DNA of 64,000 nucleotides from Limosilactobacillus reuteri subsp. reuteri. Lineage in GTDB: Bacteria > Bacillota > Bacilli > Lactobacillales > Lactobacillaceae. Below, piece by piece: positions 26,974 to 50,268 of this stretch. The notes beneath the pieces were generated by a model, which did not search any database, had not been told where the DNA came from, and saw only the letters and a list, made by a program, of their open reading frames with translations. Position 1 is the stretch's first letter, and the number at the start of each line of letters is the position of its first letter. The translations under genes and the position numbers were made by a program. The DNA is taken from NCBI RefSeq assembly GCF_000016825.1, contig NC_009513.1, positions 1,434,501 to 1,498,500 on the forward strand. The letters are read 5' to 3'.

Positions 26974-27708
26974 CTAGGCTAGTTTAGCTATTCCCTTATC
27001 AAGAATATTTTTAGCTGCGTTCCAGTCACGAATATGGTGAGTACCACAGTTAGGACAAGTCCATTTGCGGTCAGCTAACGTTAGTTTGTCCGTGCCATTA
27101 GTACCCATCACAAAGCCACAATTGTGACATGTTTGGGTAGTATTTCTTGGGCTGATTGTGATAAATTGCCGACCATACAGATCTGCTTTATATGCTAACA
27201 TGCCAAGAAAGGAACGCCAGCCAACGTCAGAGATACTAAGCGCTAAAGCATGATTTTTGAGCATATTCTTACTACGCAACTCCTCAGCTACTACTAAATC
27301 GTGGTTCTTGATTAGTGCAGTAGAGATTTGTTGAAGAAAATTATGTCTTTGGTTCATTACTTTGGCATGAAGCTTAGCAACTAACAAGCGTTGCTTTTGG
27401 TAATTTTTACTGTCTCGTAAAGAACGATGTTCTTTTTTTGCACGCCATTGCCGTCTAGATAAAATACGCTGCTCTTTGGCTAATTTGTCTTTAATAGTGC
27501 GATAATATTGTGGATTAGGAACTGTGTTACCTTCACTATCGGTTAAGAAATTATCAGTATTAAGATCAATTCCAATATGTCCGTGATTAGTTTTGGACTC
27601 TTTAACGAAAGGTTTATCTGAAGCTAGTTGCATTGATAGAAAGAAGTGATCCGCCGGATCTTTAGTCAACGTCACAGTACCAATTCTAGTCTCACACATT
27701 CTCTTCAA
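26974..27708 (-). pseudogene. tnpB: TnpB (RNA-guided nuclease of IS605 group), N-terminally truncated
   Basis: The remaining 244 residues contain the whole RuvC part. First catalytic Asp is in IGIDLNTDNF, Glu in VVAEELRSKNM, the zinc ribbon is CHNCG...CPNCG, and last Asp is in HIRDWNAAKNI. The normal N-terminal wedge/REC part (about 130-150 residues) is missing. Upstream the frame reads KIGLLRVAGSQARLL back to a TAA, then meets the left end. The catalytic residues are intact but guide-RNA binding would be impaired, so I call it a relic. Confidence 0.82.
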
Positions 27709-33248: not shown

Positions 33249-33848
33249 ATTTTTGCTGCAAAATTAGATTATTTACGTATATATTCCTTTAGAAGCAAAA
33301 ATAACATACCAGCACGCTTGCGTTATTACCAAGAACAGGTTGATCATGAGCTATTAAGACCTGGAGATAATTACTCAGTACTCAATAATTACCCTACTTA
33401 TATTATTATGTTTTGTAATTTTGACTATTTTAAGCAGGGATGGGCACGATATGAATTTAATCTTACTTGTACTAGAGACCATAATCTAAAATTTGGTGAT
33501 AATCGGACAGTCGTTATCTTCAATGCTCTTGCTAAAAAATTTGATAAAAATGATGAACCGATTAAGAACTTCCTTGCTTTAATGTGCAATCAAGGCGACA
33601 ATAAGAATAGATTTATTGCACAGATTCAAGACGAAATTGATAAAGTCAAACAAGATCCAGAAAGGAGAAATGGCTTTATGAAGTACGAATTAAACTTAAT
33701 GGACGCTAAAATGGAAGTTCGCGAGGAAGACATAAAAAAGTTAATTGACTCTCTCTATGAACTCAATATTAAACCAGAGATCATTAAACAAAAAGTTATG
33801 GAAAAATATAATTTAACTGATGATGAATATGATAAATTTCTCGAATAA
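33249..33848 (+). pseudogene. Rpn-family PD-(D/E)XK nuclease/transposase, 5'-truncated
   Basis: The open frame (33249-33848) reads as the C-terminal two-thirds of a Rpn (recombination-promoting nuclease) protein. It has SKNNIPARLRYYQEQVDHEL, YIIMFCNFDYFKQGWARYEF, VIFNALAKKFDKNDEPIKNF and a charged tail. The nuclease-active N-terminus is absent and there is no ribosome binding site; the first usable start is TTG 33318. So it is a remnant right behind amtB. Confidence 0.7.
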
Positions 33849-34371: not shown

Positions 34372-35475
34372 TTAACTATAATTAACTAAATACTGGCCAT
34401 CATCAAGTAAAAATTGCTTAAATAATGGCAGCGTAAATTTTAGTTTTCCATATCCTGCCGGTGTTATTAGTTGACTATCCATTAACCGCCGACGATACAT
34501 TCCAATATAACCAGGCTTTCTCTTTAACTTTGTTCTTAAGTAACTAGTTGAAACAGGATACTCAGAAGCTTTAGCCATAGTCATAACAAATTGCTGATCC
34601 ATAATAGATAATTCTTCAAGCATCTTACTGTAAGCATTTCGACTTAATTGGGCTTGATACTCTGTTTGAATACTATCTATGGTTTTCATCGTAATATGTT
34701 TATCCGGTGATTCCCATAAAAGATAAACAAGCAATTGAAAGGCATATGCATATGCGTCCGAAAGAAGAGCGGCGCGGCGAACCACTGCTGGCGAAATTTC
34801 CGGATCTCGTACTTTCAATGCTTGTTGATATTGCGCTCTGATATCATAGTAATTTAGTGGGGAAAGACTTATTCTTCCGCTACGTAATTAGAATGTTAAT
34901 ACATGATTATTTTGCAAGTCTTGAACATTTTTGGGTAATCCAGTCATGATTATTGAGATGGGTAGCCCCTCACTAATCATGACTTGATATACTGATGCTA
35001 ATTCAACCATTCCCGTTACTTCTTGAGCTTCATCAATCATTACCAATACTTTCTGATTATTTTTTTCTAATATTTTTAACATTTTCTTTAATACAAGTTG
35101 ATAATTTGATGTTTGTTTATCATTAAGAGTGAATTTTAAGCCTAATCCACCAATTTCAAAATTAATATCGGAGAGTTGGTCAAATATTTTTTTAATTTTA
35201 TTTGTTGATTGTTGGTAAATCATTTCAGCCAAACGCCCCACCATATTATCTCCAATAATTAAATGAATAGTTATCCACGTCGGATCTTGATCAATCTGTT
35301 TGCCAACAGAATTCATAAAAACTGTTTTTCCAACTCCACGATTTCCATAAATCAAAGTAGTTCGATAAGGAGTATCAAGCGCTTTAATGTCTTTAACCAA
35401 TTTTGATTGTACTTCTTCGCGATCTAATAACACAGTTGGTTGAATACCAAAACTTGGATTAAACGGATTTCTCAT
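34372..35475 (-). pseudogene. AAA ATPase (Orc1/Cdc6-like ATP-binding protein) with one nonsense codon
   Basis: The frame from ATG 35475 encodes Walker A (YGNRGVGKT), Walker B (VMIDEAQE) and sensor-like SIIMTGLPK, then stops at TAA 34888-34890 after 195 codons. Translation continues in exactly the same frame for 23 codons (LRSGRISLSPLNYYDIRAQY) into the 148-codon frame ending at 34372. That last part has a winged-helix-like look. The whole would be 367 residues. Function of intact relatives is unclear; they occur on mobile elements. It is flanked upstream by AT-rich repeats and a terminator. Confidence 0.8.
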
Positions 35476-35490: not shown

Positions 35491-35560
35491 TTTATATTTC
35501 TAATATAATTTTATATCTTTACTCAAGTTTTATATCTGTTTATATCTTAAATTTTATATG
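35491..35560 (-). repeat. Cluster of AGATATAAA-type repeats upstream of the ATPase gene
   Basis: On the minus strand the motif GATATAAA occurs three times, and close variants (AAATATAAA, CATATAAA) at both ends, within 70 bases before the ATPase start. The spacing is irregular. It could be a regulator or initiator binding array, or just AT-rich promoter DNA. Confidence 0.5.
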
Positions 35561-35561
35561 T

Positions 35562-35615
35562 AAAAAGCCAGGTAACTCCCTTCTCTAAAAAAGTTAGGAA
35601 TTACTTGGCTTTTTA
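35562..35615. terminator. Bidirectional terminator between the primase-helicase and ATPase genes
   Basis: AAAAAGCCAGGTAA (from 35562) pairs with TTACTTGGCTTTTT (to 35614) with an internal bulge region. T-runs are available on both strands. Confidence 0.8.
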
Positions 35616-35657
35616 TCAATCTAATTTTCTACTCTAATAAAAGTAATACTCATTTCA

Positions 35658-38420
35658 TCATATTTGATATTTAGAACTAGTAATCTTTTTAGCTAATTCA
35701 GTATTTACTAATCGAATAGCTGATGAATTCTTATAAGAATTTCCCCCAAAGTTTAAATCACCATACCAACAAATTTTTTGATCAAAAACACAAATATTAT
35801 TACCAATTTTTTCTTTTAACTTAAAATCGACTTTATTTGATAAAAGTTTATAGTCACAATTTCTCTGCTTTTTATCCAAAGTAAGGGAAATCTGACTAAA
35901 TTTTACCATTTCATTCAACATTTCAATTTGTTTTTGATTAATCCTTTTTAAACAGATAAAAACTTTCTTAGCATTAGCAAGATCTTGTCTCCATACTGGC
36001 AAATAGTCATCTTTAGTATAGTAAGCAGTTGAATAACTATTCCATTGCTTACTATGAACAAAACTATATCCTTGTTGCTTATAGACTCTTACCCTCTTCC
36101 GATACATCTTTGCAAATGTCTCATCAGCAATATCAACATAATCATATACACGTAATTCGTCTTTTTTATCTAGGTTTCGTTCTAATCGACCAAGATATTG
36201 CTTTGTATTACCTTTCCAAGAAAAAGGTAACGTTAAAAATAATGTATCTAAACTTGGTAAATCAAATCCTTCTCCCACATATTTGCCAGTTGACAAAAGA
36301 ATATATGGGTCTTTAATTTTTGATAACTTAATGGATAATTTTTGTGTTCCAGTAGTCAAATATACTTTGCTAGTTTTCTGCTTTAGTTTTGCGTAAAGTT
36401 CATTAAGATGTTTAATTCGTTCACTCAACAATAAAATATGTCTTCCTTCAGACAATGCTTGGAGTGCATCTTTTACTATTTGTTCATTACGGTCATTATT
36501 TTCAGCAATCAACCTTATCTTTTGCGCATAAGTATCACGTTCTAATTTACTTTTAGTTTCAAGAAAACTATTATAACGCGGATATATATAACGAGAAATC
36601 AAATATTCTTTTTCACTATCTTGAGCTTGGTAGAGAATATTTCCACAACGATAATACATAAAATTTTCTAATCCATCTTTTCTTTCGGGCGTTGCTGTTA
36701 ACCCCAGAACATATCGTGTGTTTGCTTCTATTAAAGTTTTTTCGAAGGTTACCGCAGAAATATGATGACATTCATCAACAATTATTTGTTCATAGTCTTG
36801 AAATAGTTTTGTACGCTCAGTAGCTGATAAATGAATTAATTTACGAATATTAATAATATCGACTAATTTTGAAGGATGATTACGAGTTCCAGAAATAATT
36901 TCAATTTGTTTTTTCTTAACAGATCGTCCAGTCTTAGTTAATTCTTTATATGGCACATCCTTAATTTTCAAAAATCTTAAAGCAGCATCTCGCCATTGAT
37001 TAGCAATGTTAACAGTAGACACAATAATCAATGTTCTTGCTTTACGCCTTGCAATTAGCGCACATCCAACAACCGTTTTTCCAAATCCAGTATGAGCACA
37101 CAGCATCCCCAATTTATTTTTATCAATTTTATTTACTGCTTCTTCTTGTTGCGGCCGCAGGGTACCTGTAAATTCAACATTCAACGCTTTGGACAGAGTA
37201 AATTGTTCTTTTAAATAACTATGACAATTATCTTTTAATGACGACTCTACTCCTCGTGGCAATCGTAAATATTTACCATCAATTTTTGCTGCTGTTAAAA
37301 TTGAAGGAACATCCCACACAGGCATACGCATTCTTTGTCTCTTAATATATTCTGGGTTACTAAAAGTAGCTAAGTTTAATAATGATAATTGCTCTTGACG
37401 CGTTAAATTTTGACGATTAATAAATATTTCCCCAGCAATAAAGCCTTCAACTTTTTTAGGAAAATTTTGCAAAAACGGGATAATTAATCTAGAGTTTTCG
37501 CCTTTTAGAATTTTCAGATCTTTAGTAATTCGACTAATGAAATTTTTTACTTCTTCTTCACTATACTTTTTTGTGCTTTCTAATTGGTCAAATAACTGTG
37601 ACAGTGCTAAAGGCTGAAGATTATTATCAGTAAAAATAGACTTTTTCTCTTTTACATCACTCCATTTTAATGGCAAAGCAATCAAATTTCCAAATCCTTT
37701 TTCAGGTAATCGATCTTGATTAGGAATCATACGATCAAATGATGACAAATCAAGACTTTCACTAGTAATCATCGACTCTACTAAAATCAATTTACCAAGA
37801 AATCTAGCTGTACTTGCCGCAATTGGTTGACTAAAAAATATCCATAGATGATAACTATTACCAGATGATGATATTTCAGGAAGACAGTTAAGATCATATT
37901 TTTGGCAAGTCCTAATTACCGCCTTAGTCATTTTATAAGGTTCAGCGGCTGATTGATGTTTATCAAAATCAAAAACTAATAGCTTTGTTTTATCATCTTT
38001 TAATAAAGGATAGATCCCGTAACGATGATATTTATCTGAAGAAGAAATCTGCTCATAAATCACTTTCCTAGTATAAGGAAGATATTGTTTCTTCAGTTTT
38101 GACAATGCTTCTTTATTATTTCGCAATTGATAAAAGATTCGCCAATTTTTTAATGCTGGACTATACCCTTTACCATTACTCCACTTTTGAGCAAATACAT
38201 CAGGACGACCTGCAAAATAATCAGCATATAATGCTAACTTTTCACTAGTTGTTCTTTTCTTAGCTATAAGACTTAATAATTCCTGTTCACTAACAATCCA
38301 ATCCGTCCCTTTATCAGTGGTAATTGAGTAAAATTTTTCTTTAGTTTCGTAATGCCAATATACTTGAGTAACGGTAATGATATCACCGTTATTTAACGCG
38401 TATTCTTTACCTATTTCCAT
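35658..38420 (-). CDS. TOTE-type primase-helicase with PLD-like C-terminus
   Basis: A large protein (920 residues from ATG 38420; an ATG at 38435 is the alternative, but GGAG lies nine bases before 38420). Positions count from 38435. An archaeo-eukaryotic primase domain has the DxD motif in LLVFDFDKH (D156, D158), SSSGNSYHLW (H196) and the highly typical MIPNQDRLPEKGFGNLIALP (from 236). A superfamily 2 helicase follows: Walker A AHTGFGKT (447-454), DECH (555-558), TATPERKDG and QYLGRLER (746-753). The end CVFDQKICWYGDLN (about 882-895) resembles the second half of a phospholipase D/nuclease site. This arrangement matches proteins of the TOTE conflict class; anti-phage or anti-element action is proposed for the class, not shown here. 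Confidence 0.82.
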   Translation of the reverse strand: MEIGKEYALNNGDIITVTQVYWHYETKEKFYSITTDKGTDWIVSEQELLSLIAKKRTTSEKLALYADYFAGRPDVFAQKWSNGKGYSPALKNWRIFYQLRNNKEALSKLKKQYLPYTRKVIYEQISSSDKYHRYGIYPLLKDDKTKLLVFDFDKHQSAAEPYKMTKAVIRTCQKYDLNCLPEISSSGNSYHLWIFFSQPIAASTARFLGKLILVESMITSESLDLSSFDRMIPNQDRLPEKGFGNLIALPLKWSDVKEKKSIFTDNNLQPLALSQLFDQLESTKKYSEEEVKNFISRITKDLKILKGENSRLIIPFLQNFPKKVEGFIAGEIFINRQNLTRQEQLSLLNLATFSNPEYIKRQRMRMPVWDVPSILTAAKIDGKYLRLPRGVESSLKDNCHSYLKEQFTLSKALNVEFTGTLRPQQEEAVNKIDKNKLGMLCAHTGFGKTVVGCALIARRKARTLIIVSTVNIANQWRDAALRFLKIKDVPYKELTKTGRSVKKKQIEIISGTRNHPSKLVDIINIRKLIHLSATERTKLFQDYEQIIVDECHHISAVTFEKTLIEANTRYVLGLTATPERKDGLENFMYYRCGNILYQAQDSEKEYLISRYIYPRYNSFLETKSKLERDTYAQKIRLIAENNDRNEQIVKDALQALSEGRHILLLSERIKHLNELYAKLKQKTSKVYLTTGTQKLSIKLSKIKDPYILLSTGKYVGEGFDLPSLDTLFLTLPFSWKGNTKQYLGRLERNLDKKDELRVYDYVDIADETFAKMYRKRVRVYKQQGYSFVHSKQWNSYSTAYYTKDDYLPVWRQDLANAKKVFICLKRINQKQIEMLNEMVKFSQISLTLDKKQRNCDYKLLSNKVDFKLKEKIGNNICVFDQKICWYGDLNFGGNSYKNSSAIRLVNTELAKKITSSKYQI

Positions 38421-38490
38421 GTAGTTTAACTCCATTTAGCTAGCTACTATTATTACCCATCAAGATTCTCGAAATTTTAGATTAGCCAAA

Positions 38491-38805
38491 TCATTTAACA
38501 ACATCATTAATCATATCTCTTAATTCTTCGCTAAAGCCATTTAAATCTTCATCTGTAATTACTTTCTCTGATATTAACTGCAATAAAATCTGAAACATGG
38601 ATCTCCTCGATGCTTCAACAATAACCCCCGGCGATTTTCGATCTGCTTTTATTCGTTTTTCCAACTTCCAAAATTTATTTGCTGCCGAACCATCACCATC
38701 TAATATTCTTTTGTATTCTTGGTTAAGTCGATTCATATATCTTTCTTGCCATTCTGGAAGCAGCTTGTTGAATAATTGCCAGTCACTTTTAGAGATATTA
38801 TTCAT
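38491..38805 (-). CDS. Small helical protein upstream of the primase-helicase
   Basis: A 104-residue charged, all-helical protein (NNISKSDWQLFNKLLPEWQE; FWKLEKRIKADRKSPGV; MFQILLQLISEKVITDEDLN). No family recognised. It is 70 bases upstream of the primase-helicase start in the same direction, so probably one transcript. It could be a regulator or partner of that system; this is inference from position only. Confidence 0.65.
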   Translation of the reverse strand: MNNISKSDWQLFNKLLPEWQERYMNRLNQEYKRILDGDGSAANKFWKLEKRIKADRKSPGVIVEASRRSMFQILLQLISEKVITDEDLNGFSEELRDMINDVVK

Positions 38806-45943: not shown

Positions 45944-45992
45944 TATTTTCATTGTAGTTTAGCCACCGTAAATAAAAATTGATTATCATCAA
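45944..45992 (-). promoter_or_regulatory. FNR/FLP-box promoter of the HMA-dps-flp genes
   Basis: TTGATTATCATCAA (45979-45992), a perfect TTGAT-N4-ATCAA palindrome, is followed on the minus strand by TACAAT (45951-45956) as -10. With a start near 45944 the box centre is at -41.5, the class II activator position. It overlaps the ATPase stop codon. Confidence 0.8.
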
Positions 45993-47844
45993 TTTTGAGA
46001 AATTCGTTTCATCAACCGCATACTGTTCAAAATAACAATCAGAATACTAAGCTCATGAATCAGCATTCCTGATGCCATTTCGATATAACCAACAAAAAGT
46101 CCAATAAACAATAGCACTACCGTCAGTAAGGCAATCAAGATGTTTTCATTCATATTGGTGATGGTTCGCCGTGCCAAGCGAAAACTGGTGACTAGACTAT
46201 TCAGATCTGATTTCACAAGTACTAGGTCGGCTACATCCATTGCAACATCAGTACCGGAACCCATTGCCACTGCAACATCAGCTGCGGAGAGTGCCGGACT
46301 ATCATTAATCCCGTCACCAATAAATGCGATCCGGTGACCGTCAGCCTGTTGCTGTTTGAGATAGTCAGCTTTCCCTTGAGGAAGCATCGCTGCGTGAACT
46401 TCATCGATTGGCAGGTTAGCTGCGATCTGATGAGCGGTTCCTTCATTATCGCCAGTCAACATTATGAGTCGTTTGACCCCTAACGCTTTTAATTGTCGTA
46501 ACGCCGATTGTGCCTGTGATCGTAACTGATCTTTGATACCAAAGATTGCCAATTCATGGTGATCCATGCTGGCAAAAATAACAATCGAATTTCCATCACT
46601 CGTCAGTTGATCAATGAGTTGGTCGAGAGTTGAACTGTACCTAATAAGTCTTTAATCAGGGTTGGATTACCTAATAAGTACTCACCTTCACCAATTTGCG
46701 CTCGGATTCCCTGTCCCTTAATCGTTTGAATATCGGTTGGTTGATAATCGTGCTTCCTATCTAGCTTGCCAATTGCTTGTGCCAACGGGTGGTCCGATCG
46801 TTGTTCAACTGCTACCGCTTGATCAATAATCGTCTGTCGGTCTCCGTTCAGAACATTGACACTAGTAACAACCGGCTTCCCGATAGTTAAGGTACCCGTC
46901 TTATCAAAGGCAATCGTGTCAATATGCTTCATTCGGTCCATGACATCGGAACCCTTAAAGAGAATCCCCTGACGAGCACCATTACCGATTCCAGCAACAG
47001 TAGATGCAGGGACACCAATCACAAGCGCACCTGGACAGCCAAGAACCATTACGGTAATTGCTAACCGCACGTCTCGTGTAATCAAGCCAACCATAATTGC
47101 TACCAATAGCACAACTGGCGTGTAATAACGGGCGAAGCGATCAATAAAGCGTTGCGTCTTCGTTTGCGAATCCTGAGCTTCTTCCACTAGTTCAATAATT
47201 TTACCGAACGTAGTATCTTCGCCTGCCGCGGTAGTATTCACCGTCACCGTCCCATTCTCCAAAATGGTTCCCGCAAAAACTGCATCTCCAGGATGTTTCT
47301 TAACTAACCGGGACTCCCCAGTAATACTGGCTTCATTTAGAACGGCAGTCCCAGTCTTGATCGTGCCATCGACTGGAACCTGATTTCCAGTCTTAATTAA
47401 GACCATGTCCCCTGGATCAATGAAGTCCACATCCTCATCACTGGTATTGCCATCTTCATCAATCACCACCGCGGTTCGAGGAGCAAGTTCGGTTAGCTGC
47501 TTAATTGCCGACCGTGTCTTCCTTAAAGTAGCGTTTTCTAATACCTCACCAACCATAAAAAGCCAGGTAACAATCGCCGCTTCGTTATATTCGCCAATGA
47601 TAAAAGCACCGATCACCGCAATACTGACGAGAACATCAATCGATATCAGCCGTACCTCTAATGATGAGATGGCTGTGAACAAAATCGGCAATAGACCGAT
47701 GACCCCTGCAGTGGCCATTAGGATCTGATACATTAAGTTATTTGAGCTGATAAAGCGAAAAGCTTCTGCCAGAATTAATAAAACGGTCAAGCCGATCACC
47801 AATGCTTGTCGTTGCTCAGTCAGGAATCGTTGTACTTTGACCAT
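45989..47844 (-). pseudogene. Heavy-metal P1B-type ATPase, frameshifted
   Basis: The first frame (47844-46603, 413 codons) has six helices, TGES in ASITGESRLVKK, the metal-site CPG in VLGCPGALVIGVPAS (usual CPC/CPx) and DKTGTLTIG. It stops at TGA 46603. The next frame (open from about 46650 to 45989) continues with LDQLIDQLTSDGNSIVIFAS, MLTGDNEG and the hinge IGDGINDSPALSAADVAVAMG, plus two last helices. A one-base deletion or two-base insertion in 46605-46650 explains it. Restored length is about 617 residues without an N-terminal metal-binding domain. No obvious slippery heptamer is seen. Confidence 0.85.
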
Positions 47845-48387: not shown

Positions 48388-50268
48388 ATTATCGACCTCT
48401 CACACCACCGTACGTACGGTTCCGTATACGGCAGTTCGACAACTTAATCACTTTGAATTGACTGGAGCGTCTTGGACATATTCATAAGTCCGAGTTGTTC
48501 CAGTTTTCTATTTGTTAGAGAATAGCTCAAGGTCTTACTGTGTGCAGTTCGCCAGTAGCCCTTGCGGGTACTAGCGAAGACATATGCATCACGCTGGGAC
48601 AGCCCCAGCTTCTGTAAGTTAGTTACCTTAGTTTTAAGTTTCTTCCATTGCTTCCAGATATACTGTCTTATTCGGGCCCTCAACCACTTGTCAAGGCGTT
48701 GAATAAAGTCAGTTAGTTTCCCAATTGAGTAGTACTGAAGCCATCCACGCATTTTTCGCTGAATTTCTTCAAACATTCTTGTCAGAGATATTCCACGATT
48801 ACGTTTAGTTAATAACTTCAATGCTTTCTTTATTCTTTGTTGCGATTGTTTTGCTGGACGGGCGTAGGCTCCATTGTGGTCTACACCCAACGAAAAGCCA
48901 AGAAACTTCAACCGTAGTGGGCTACCGACTTTGGTTTTATCTGAGTTCACTTTAACTTTCAATCGCTTTTCAAGAAACTGGGTAATGCTTCGCATTACTC
49001 GTTCTCCGGCTCGTTGACTTTTAACATAAATGTTACAATCATCCGCATAGCGCACAAAGTGGTGACCACGTCTAGTCAACTCTTTGTCCAACTCATTTAG
49101 ATAGATGTTCGCCAGTAGTGGTGACAATGGCCCTCCTTGTGGGGTTCCTTTTTCACTCTTAGCGAAAAGCCCATGGTCTAAGACTCCGCTAGTTAGAAAC
49201 TTACGAATGAGTCTTAGTGTCCATGGGTCATCAATATATTGTTGGAGATACTTAATCATCAAGTCATGATTAACGTTATCAAAATAGGCTTTTAGGTCTA
49301 AGTCGACAACTCTTCGATAACCTTGATTATAAAGATCTACTACTTTTGCAATAGCGTCGTGAGCCCCACGGTGAGGGCGGAAGCCAAAACTATTATCAGA
49401 GAAAACACGCTCAAAGATAGGTGTAAGAATTTGGGCCACAGCTTGTTGAACCATTCGGTCCACCACTGTTGGTATTCCGAGTTTTCTTACTCCACCATTA
49501 GGCTTCGGAATTTCTACCCGTTTGACTGGTGCTGGTTTATACTTGCCCTCACGCAAACTAGCGATCAATTCCGTCTTATTTTCTCTGAGATATGGCAGAA
49601 GGTCATTGACTGTCATATCGTCAATGCCTGCTGCCCCTTTATTTCTCTTAACTCGCAAATAAGCTTGATTAAGGTTATTGCGGTCCAAGACTAAGTCTTG
49701 GATAGTGACACTCATACCTTTACCTTCACCATAATCGGTACTACGCGCCCTTGTGTACTTTCGGTTTTCCAAACCTATCCTCGACAAGCGGTCAGCTTGT
49801 TGTTCTGTTTTCTGCGATTGTCGCACCTGATTACACCTCCGATATAAGTTACAAGTTATTGTCGTTCAGTCCTTCATCTGATTACTCAGACTACTATGAC
49901 CTCAGCTGACTTCTGGCTTACTCAACGCTACATCACTGCACCGCTTGTTTCTGTGGAATTAAACTTATTCCTCTTGTCGGAAACGTGTAGGCCAGCTCTC
50001 CCCGGGTAAGGATATTAACTTTCGTACCATGTCACCGGTAGCTTTACTGAAAGTAACTTCGAGTAGTATTGGACTTCAACTTGTCATGCAGTCTTATCCA
50101 GTTAGTTCCAGCCTTATAGCTACTTCTTGTTCATCGGTGCAGTACTTTGCCTTAGACTTCCTTCAGATTCCACCTCACAGTGGACACCCTTGTCCTCAGC
50201 TCATGTTTCCGACTACTACGGTCCATAGCGGACTCTCACCGCCTAGCTAATACCCATGCCGGGCGCAC
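48388..50268 (-). mobile_element. Group II intron, class C type, with internal reverse transcriptase
   Basis: The 5' end GTGCGCCCGGCATGGGT is at 50268-50252. Domain V lies at about 48403-48437, with CCGTATACGGAACCGTACG and the ACGGTGGTG that follows. The 3' end is about 48388 (ending GATAAT). The length is about 1.88 kb. The ribozyme part between 49827 and 50268 has no other gene. It sits right behind a terminator hairpin (50274-50320), the preferred target of class C introns. It is in the same strand sense as the gene whose terminator it uses. Confidence 0.88.
48444..49826 (-). CDS. ltrA: Group II intron reverse transcriptase/maturase
   Basis: Intron-encoded protein of 460 residues. RT blocks include LGIPTVVDRMVQQAVAQIL, FGFRPHRGAHDAI, VVDLDLKAYFDNVNHDLM, GTPQGGPLSPLLANIYL and the catalytic FVRYADDCNIYV. 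The maturase (X) domain has MRGWLQYYSIGKLTDFIQRL. There is no HNH endonuclease domain, as in class C. It starts with GTG 49826 behind GGAGG at eight bases. All key residues are present, so the intron may still be active. Confidence 0.93.
   Translation of the reverse strand: MRQSQKTEQQADRLSRIGLENRKYTRARSTDYGEGKGMSVTIQDLVLDRNNLNQAYLRVKRNKGAAGIDDMTVNDLLPYLRENKTELIASLREGKYKPAPVKRVEIPKPNGGVRKLGIPTVVDRMVQQAVAQILTPIFERVFSDNSFGFRPHRGAHDAIAKVVDLYNQGYRRVVDLDLKAYFDNVNHDLMIKYLQQYIDDPWTLRLIRKFLTSGVLDHGLFAKSEKGTPQGGPLSPLLANIYLNELDKELTRRGHHFVRYADDCNIYVKSQRAGERVMRSITQFLEKRLKVKVNSDKTKVGSPLRLKFLGFSLGVDHNGAYARPAKQSQQRIKKALKLLTKRNRGISLTRMFEEIQRKMRGWLQYYSIGKLTDFIQRLDKWLRARIRQYIWKQWKKLKTKVTNLQKLGLSQRDAYVFASTRKGYWRTAHSKTLSYSLTNRKLEQLGLMNMSKTLQSIQSD

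Follow-up and report, generated by a model that had tools for sequence, protein, structure and literature searches.

The stretch of DNA analysed here, hereafter the window, comprises 64,000 nucleotides of Limosilactobacillus reuteri subsp. reuteri (positions 1434501-1498500 of the single contig, NC_009513.1, of a genome referred to as G000; G and L numbers denote genomes and loci) and contains a gene for a large protein that combines an archaeo-eukaryotic primase (AEP) domain, a superfamily 2 (SF2) helicase and a fold of the phospholipase D (PLD) type. This big gene occupies 35658..38435 on the minus strand as an open reading frame (ORF) of 925 amino acids, and an orphan gene of 104 amino acids that matches no family above cut-off lies upstream of it at 38491..38805 on the same strand, with 55 bases between the two ORFs. 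A preliminary description, made from the letters alone, had placed a large gene and a small upstream partner on one strand at 35658..38805, where both ORFs were indeed found; its figure of 920 residues for the large product is correct only with the start used in genome G034, where the product begins at the sixth codon (residue 6). It had also bounded the locus by a terminator, and 3' of the big gene there is a terminator-like hairpin at 35555..35625 on the minus strand whose folding energy favours that view (-25.8 kcal/mol, z -6.2) and whose sequence is 82-83% alike in G035, G036 and G037, although it is absent from the list returned by a simple terminator scan.

The primase and the helicase are the securely identified parts of the protein, as had been read from their motifs. 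The AEP-TOTE primase-polymerase domain (Pfam PF22548) spans residues 65-298 (37542..38243, minus strand) and is matched at E 8.1e-69 with 232.2 bits, against a cut-off of 27, over profile positions 1-229 of 230. An XPB/UvsW-like SF2 helicase follows at residues 425-790 (36066..37163, minus strand), with a ResIII/DEAD match in Pfam at residues 425-585. The catalytic residues of archaeo-eukaryotic primases are DxD, H and D, which can be placed at DFD 156-158, at the end of SGNSYH (H196) and at FD234; the helicase motifs were placed at Walker A 447-455, DECHH 554-558, GLTATP 578-583, motif V 716-725 and motif VI 746-753. Among 44 aligned rows of relatives, D156, D158 and H196 are invariant in 42/42 that cover them and D234 in 43/43, and all of the primase and helicase residues that were checked are invariant in every covering row (42-44 of 44). 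Of these rows, 38 make up the main alignment (A1), residues being read separately for L041, L107, L115, L122, L131 and L132; the broken or cut copies L042, L060, L065 and L129 are in neither alignment, nor are the hits G500, G532, G690, L098-L106, L133 and L134, taken without their full frames. The protein also matches the PADLOC model Prim-Pol at 3e-54 and the NCBIfam XPB model at 1e-19, the latter far under its cut-off. Its solved relatives by sequence are XPBII, the CAPP Prim-Pol (7nqd, 7nqf) and Rad25, to which a 38-row profile search of solved structures adds UvsW and RadD, and a full-length predicted model (mean predicted local distance difference test score, pLDDT, 78.9; predicted template modelling score, pTM, 0.58) finds its best structure matches in UvsW and XPB.

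The remaining C-terminal part, residues 796-925 (35661..36050, minus strand), had been likened to half of a PLD nuclease site, a likeness that extends to the fold and stops short of an active nuclease. While the tail of the window protein has no Pfam PLD match of its own, PLDc_2 was matched in 7/8 scanned relatives, five of them over the Pfam cut-off (L. rudii had no match), a profile built from 30 tails has a match to NucT (E 5e-5), and a model of the tail alone (pLDDT 81.5, pTM 0.76) finds NucT first at E 6e-8, followed, among the best 50 structure matches listed, by TrmBL2, Zucchini, Nuc and FAM83. TrmB/TrmBL2 and FAM83 are PLD folds known to be inactive, and the motif of PLD nucleases is HxK(x)4D. 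In the window protein the positions aligned with HxK read G878-N-N880, with D885 and N895 kept; because the catalytic His and Lys are both absent, the half-site is predicted to be catalytically dead and no cutting is expected from the tail. For NucT, one histidine is reported to be essential (PMC5714352). HxK is kept in 6/31 tails (L117, L120, L121, L123, L125 and L126), all from other classes of the phylum, and the 25 tails that lack it come from 15 Lactobacillaceae, 8 other Lactobacillales and 2 other members of the phylum. None of 12 further Lactobacillaceae tails has the motif, giving a combined 0/26 distinct Lactobacillaceae tails (L286 and L034, the same contig, counted once) against 6/16 others; it is likewise lacking in the tails of the broken copies L060 and L065 and is present in one of three viral-contig tails (L155), and 13/44 aligned rows have no tail at all. 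The loss of the catalytic residues looks recurrent across the family, because on a quick primase-helicase tree of 43 rows it requires six changes, at least four of them forced by strong branches.

The proposal that the two genes form a unit does not survive a comparison of their distributions. The 104-residue gene occurs in 9/50 genomes of the genus (as fragments in G004, G028 and G029) and in 2/249 genomes of the phylum, its own included, and the big gene has nine carriers in the genus (G000, G005, G008, G010, G011, G023, G031, G034 and G038, broken in G005 and G008). Both genes are present in three of the 50 genomes, the small gene only in six, the big gene only in six and neither in 35 (Fisher P 0.19). 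The three with both are G000, G034 and G011, and the genes lie on separate contigs in G011, so that adjacency is seen in G000 and, by order of coding sequences, in G034 only. G004, G035, G036 and G037 have the small gene at this locus but lack the big one (in G004 the small gene is split in two), and the two genes differ in their synonymous divergence (dS) from G034, with 0.05 for the big and 0.34 for the small one. The distribution of the small gene is thus independent of the big gene, and it is not a fixed partner: only 3/9 carriers of the big gene have it, and six genomes have it alone. In the syntenic G035, G036 and G037 the interval 35620-38400 is absent and about 35 bases remain, which in G036 code for MELTYIEIGKE, the first 11 codons of the big gene. 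Because these first codons remain, the empty sites are deletions in which the big gene was removed and the small gene stayed, and the same remnants rule out a recent insertion of the big gene at this site. A phage search with the 104-residue protein matched one contig, 9.75 kb long and recorded as a phage of human faecal origin, where a 50% identical relative is encoded at MT836552.1:8774-9064. In the G034 stretch (L035) the coding sequences follow one another on a single strand with no spacers between them. This is a database artefact by which any study of neighbourhoods or operons would be misled; the stretch was rejected as evidence of context, and use was made of its gene order and sequence but not of its gaps.

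In its wider distribution the big gene is a patchy, repeatedly broken or lost accessory gene, not a core gene. Full or broken homologues occur in 9/50 genomes of the genus (read from the match list, since the raw tally of 41 includes weak helicase matches; 2 are broken), and matches over the Pfam cut-off occur in 10/251 Lactobacillaceae (24/396 in a larger draw), 12/246 genomes of the order and 30/299 of the phylum; G196, with one fragment under the cut-off, was dropped from the carriers. The frame is interrupted in 8/30 Lactobacillaceae carriers (G005, G008, G090, G176, G849, G857, G890 and G909), some possibly through assembly errors. The gene is under purifying selection, the ratio of nonsynonymous to synonymous rates (dN/dS) being 0.20 in the comparison with G034 (31 synonymous and 23 nonsynonymous changes) and 0.18 in that with L. 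rudii, where dS, at 1.27, is near saturation. In L. rudii (L036), as in the window, the gene lies close to genes labelled by eye as a reductase and a nitroreductase; the gene upstream is a different one.

The locus had been described as sitting among decayed mobile genes, of which the decay is evident in two neighbours. An AAA ATPase gene resembling phrog_6841 (34372-35475, minus strand) is interrupted by an in-frame stop that leaves two ORFs (195 and 148 codons), its frame being open across 367 codons in G034, and an Rpn-family nuclease gene (33318-33848, plus strand) lacks about 290 bases of its 5' end relative to the 280-codon frame of G036. No mobile element can be recognised around the big gene, and neither an integrase nor a relaxase nor the boundary of an element was seen at the locus. 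Elsewhere in the window there are, all labelled by eye, a group II intron-type reverse transcriptase (48444-49826, minus strand), to which a protein encoded about 4 kb from the AEP-TOTE gene of G031 (L038:3128-4561) is 92% identical; a metal P-type ATPase-like gene that falls into ORFs of 192 and 413 codons (45989-47844, minus strand); and a partial TnpB-like gene of 244 codons (26974-27708, minus strand).

We tentatively propose, with a probability of about 0.42, that the big protein is a solitary, accessory chromosomal enzyme that acts on incoming or abnormally replicating DNA and restricts foreign DNA without cutting it. The defence role is one that we infer, and the biochemical activities are assigned by analogy with relatives among the CAPPs and XPB; priming, polymerisation and strand displacement are described for CAPPs in PMC8211822. 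On this proposal the XPB/UvsW-like motor would open or translocate on DNA, unwinding a fork or D-loop, and the Prim-Pol domain would make or extend primers on the exposed strand. The dead PLD fold would, by analogy, probably be a module for binding nucleic acid (single-stranded DNA) or for dimerisation. The target would be phage or plasmid DNA that is incoming or replicating abnormally, and any cutting would be left to host nucleases. The repeated loss of nuclease residues, with primase and motor intact, suggests that priming plus translocation is the shared function of the family. In a bolder form, which we consider distinctly doubtful, immunity would come from DNA synthesis rather than cutting, by forced priming or strand displacement on the invading DNA; this form builds on the several lineages of the family that have inactivated or discarded their nuclease domain without any change in the primase and helicase residues.

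The lean to defence comes from the neighbourhoods of relatives. A set of 138 ORFs, up to seven nearest of at least 100 amino acids at each of 20 loci, was compared with 138 control ORFs taken from arbitrary places in these 20 genomes (140 before L245:3987-7796 and L250:11009-13993 were dropped), and at 1e-10 the neighbours matched 206 PADLOC models against 32 for the controls, counts that are inflated by overlapping models and not resolved per ORF. At least nine names fall under 1e-50 among the best 25 rows for the neighbours (PDC-S01, AbiLi, PDC-S72, Cas1, RmrA, PDC-S05, PDC-M41B, PDC-M30B and dGTPase), the best match of a control ORF being 5.1e-50; the Cas1 match is probably in part that of the CRISPR locus of G199. 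Among the 25 of 181 Pfam families listed for the neighbours, most are housekeeping or transposase families, and Fic and NERD are there as well, each in two ORFs. Individual loci also have such neighbours: at L158:4583-8325, on a contig labelled viral, a McrC gene (PF10117, E 3e-100) lies directly in front of the AEP-TOTE helicase gene and shares 4 bases with its start in an operon-like manner, other operon-like neighbours are McrBC in L120 (weaker, 6e-12), HipA in L157 and Fic in L160, in L115 a type II methyltransferase lies 2.2 kb upstream of the homologue, and L256-L258 have Cas9 loci.

Besides the overlap of PADLOC models, several observations weigh against a role in defence. Twelve freshly drawn Lactobacillaceae loci lie, by eye, mostly among metabolic and transport genes, so that the lean to defence seen in the first neighbour set is weak in the fresh one. 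In the window's own clade no recurring defence neighbour was seen except Rpn-family ORFs (in the window, L039 and the remnant L042), and an upstream ORF in L130 that had been suspected as a defence gene is PriA. The place of the big gene is common to the window and L. rudii, which argues that this is not a recent island. Literature searches found no activity or phenotype for the window gene and no paper testing an AEP-TOTE helicase; these helicases are common and named after a conflict system, yet no experimental paper turned up. In Escherichia coli, 1714/5426 complete genomes match one AEP-TOTE relative, 681 of them over at least 80%.

These points bear on four other explanations. The protein could serve genome maintenance, as a motor-equipped Prim-Pol that would reprime or remodel stalled host forks in balance with AddAB-type nucleases and would not be a defence enzyme; its helicase is nearest to the repair and recombination motors XPB and UvsW, the gene, with dN/dS 0.2, was already at its present place before the lineages of the window and L. 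rudii separated, and in Thermus, mutants of the Prim-Pol had lost addAB and had fragmented genomes (PMC9751324). Against it, the gene is absent from 41/50 genomes of the genus, has no match in 371/396 of the family and was deleted in three relatives, and we rate this explanation as somewhat unlikely. Unlikely, too, and rather more so, is a relic of the primase and helicase of a mobile-element replication module that has outlasted its element. Mobile elements often carry AEP-helicase proteins (PMC5862659, PMC8211822); the big protein is covered to at least 80% in 14 plasmid records, and of these the two inspected have AlpA-family regulator and YfjI genes beside the homologue, one with an integrase as well. 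At least seven IMG/VR loci match primase and helicase together among the best 80 loci, and the neighbours of the window gene are decayed. Against this stand the missing integrase, relaxase and boundary, a plasmid DNA search that found no near match to the locus in 72,556 plasmid records, and the purifying selection on the gene. No phage record covers 80% of the big protein.

The model of the preliminary description, a TOTE conflict system effector with the 104-residue gene as its regulator, draws on names: Pfam calls the domain AEP-TOTE, and PGAP names the relatives in E. coli 'TOTE conflict system archaeo-eukaryotic primase domain-containing protein'. TOTE stands for TPR, OB, TBP and Effector in PMC12458937, which cites Aravind, Iyer et al. 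2022, and TBP (PF00352) was matched in 0/32 carrier genomes, the window's own included, the control being matched in four archaea. No TPR or OB (cold-shock) partner was seen among the five window ORFs scanned or in the 25 of 181 Pfam families listed for the 138 neighbour ORFs. Having failed on its partner and on TBP, and with the small gene independent and the PLD site apparently dead, this model is very improbable. Less probable still is a helper of CRISPR spacer acquisition, that is, a true CAPP. The CAPP type A1 model (NCBIfam NF040561) is matched at E 4e-28, with 98.2 of the 200 bits needed. Of 40 carriers, 19 have cas1, and in three (G069, G233 and G199, against 0.26 expected) it lies within 10 kb of the AEP-TOTE helicase gene; these loci (L256, L257 and L258), from three genera of Lactobacillaceae, are of type II with cas9, cas1 and a cas2-sized gene, and their arrays of 54, 119 and 60 repeats have their near edge 0.5-3.2 kb from the gene. 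The window genome has no cas1, and in 12 fresh carriers, eight with cas1, none was within 10 kb (nearest 20 kb, in G890), some contigs being short; the CRISPR linkage of the family is weak.

Several known systems can be set beside the big gene. With the AEP-TOTE family it has in common a full-length match to PF22548, far above the cut-off, and the AEP-SF2 architecture; the TOTE system itself, as PMC12458937 defines it, was not found around the window gene, and the name of the domain does not make the locus a TOTE system. The Thermus thermophilus Ppol-Hel of ICETh2 (PMC7693054, PMC9751324) also combines a Prim-Pol and a helicase within an accessory region and has been studied genetically; it differs in having separate genes and a helicase described as DnaG-helicase-like, and the likeness drawn here is one of description. 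Its Prim-Pol was reported as a barrier to DNA (PMC7693054), an anti-transformation effect later tied to secondary addAB mutations (PMC9751324). NucT and Nuc (6ehi, 1byr) have a fold like that of the window tail, which lacks their catalytic His and Lys. The six AEP-SF2-PLD relatives that keep the PLD HxK have the same three domains in the same order at 29-32% identity, and the window's clade has lost that motif. The helicase-type Prim-Pols of CAPP_A include 7nqd and 7nqf, the nearest solved AEP sequences to the window protein; the CAPP name rests on CRISPR linkage, whereas the window genome lacks cas1 and the window protein carries a PLD-fold tail, apparently dead. According to PMC8211822, which describes the Prim-Pol-helicase type, the CAPP_A-helicase type is the most prevalent non-CRISPR architecture, and the big protein fits this non-CRISPR CAPP_A-helicase or AEP-TOTE Prim-Pol type, a known family.

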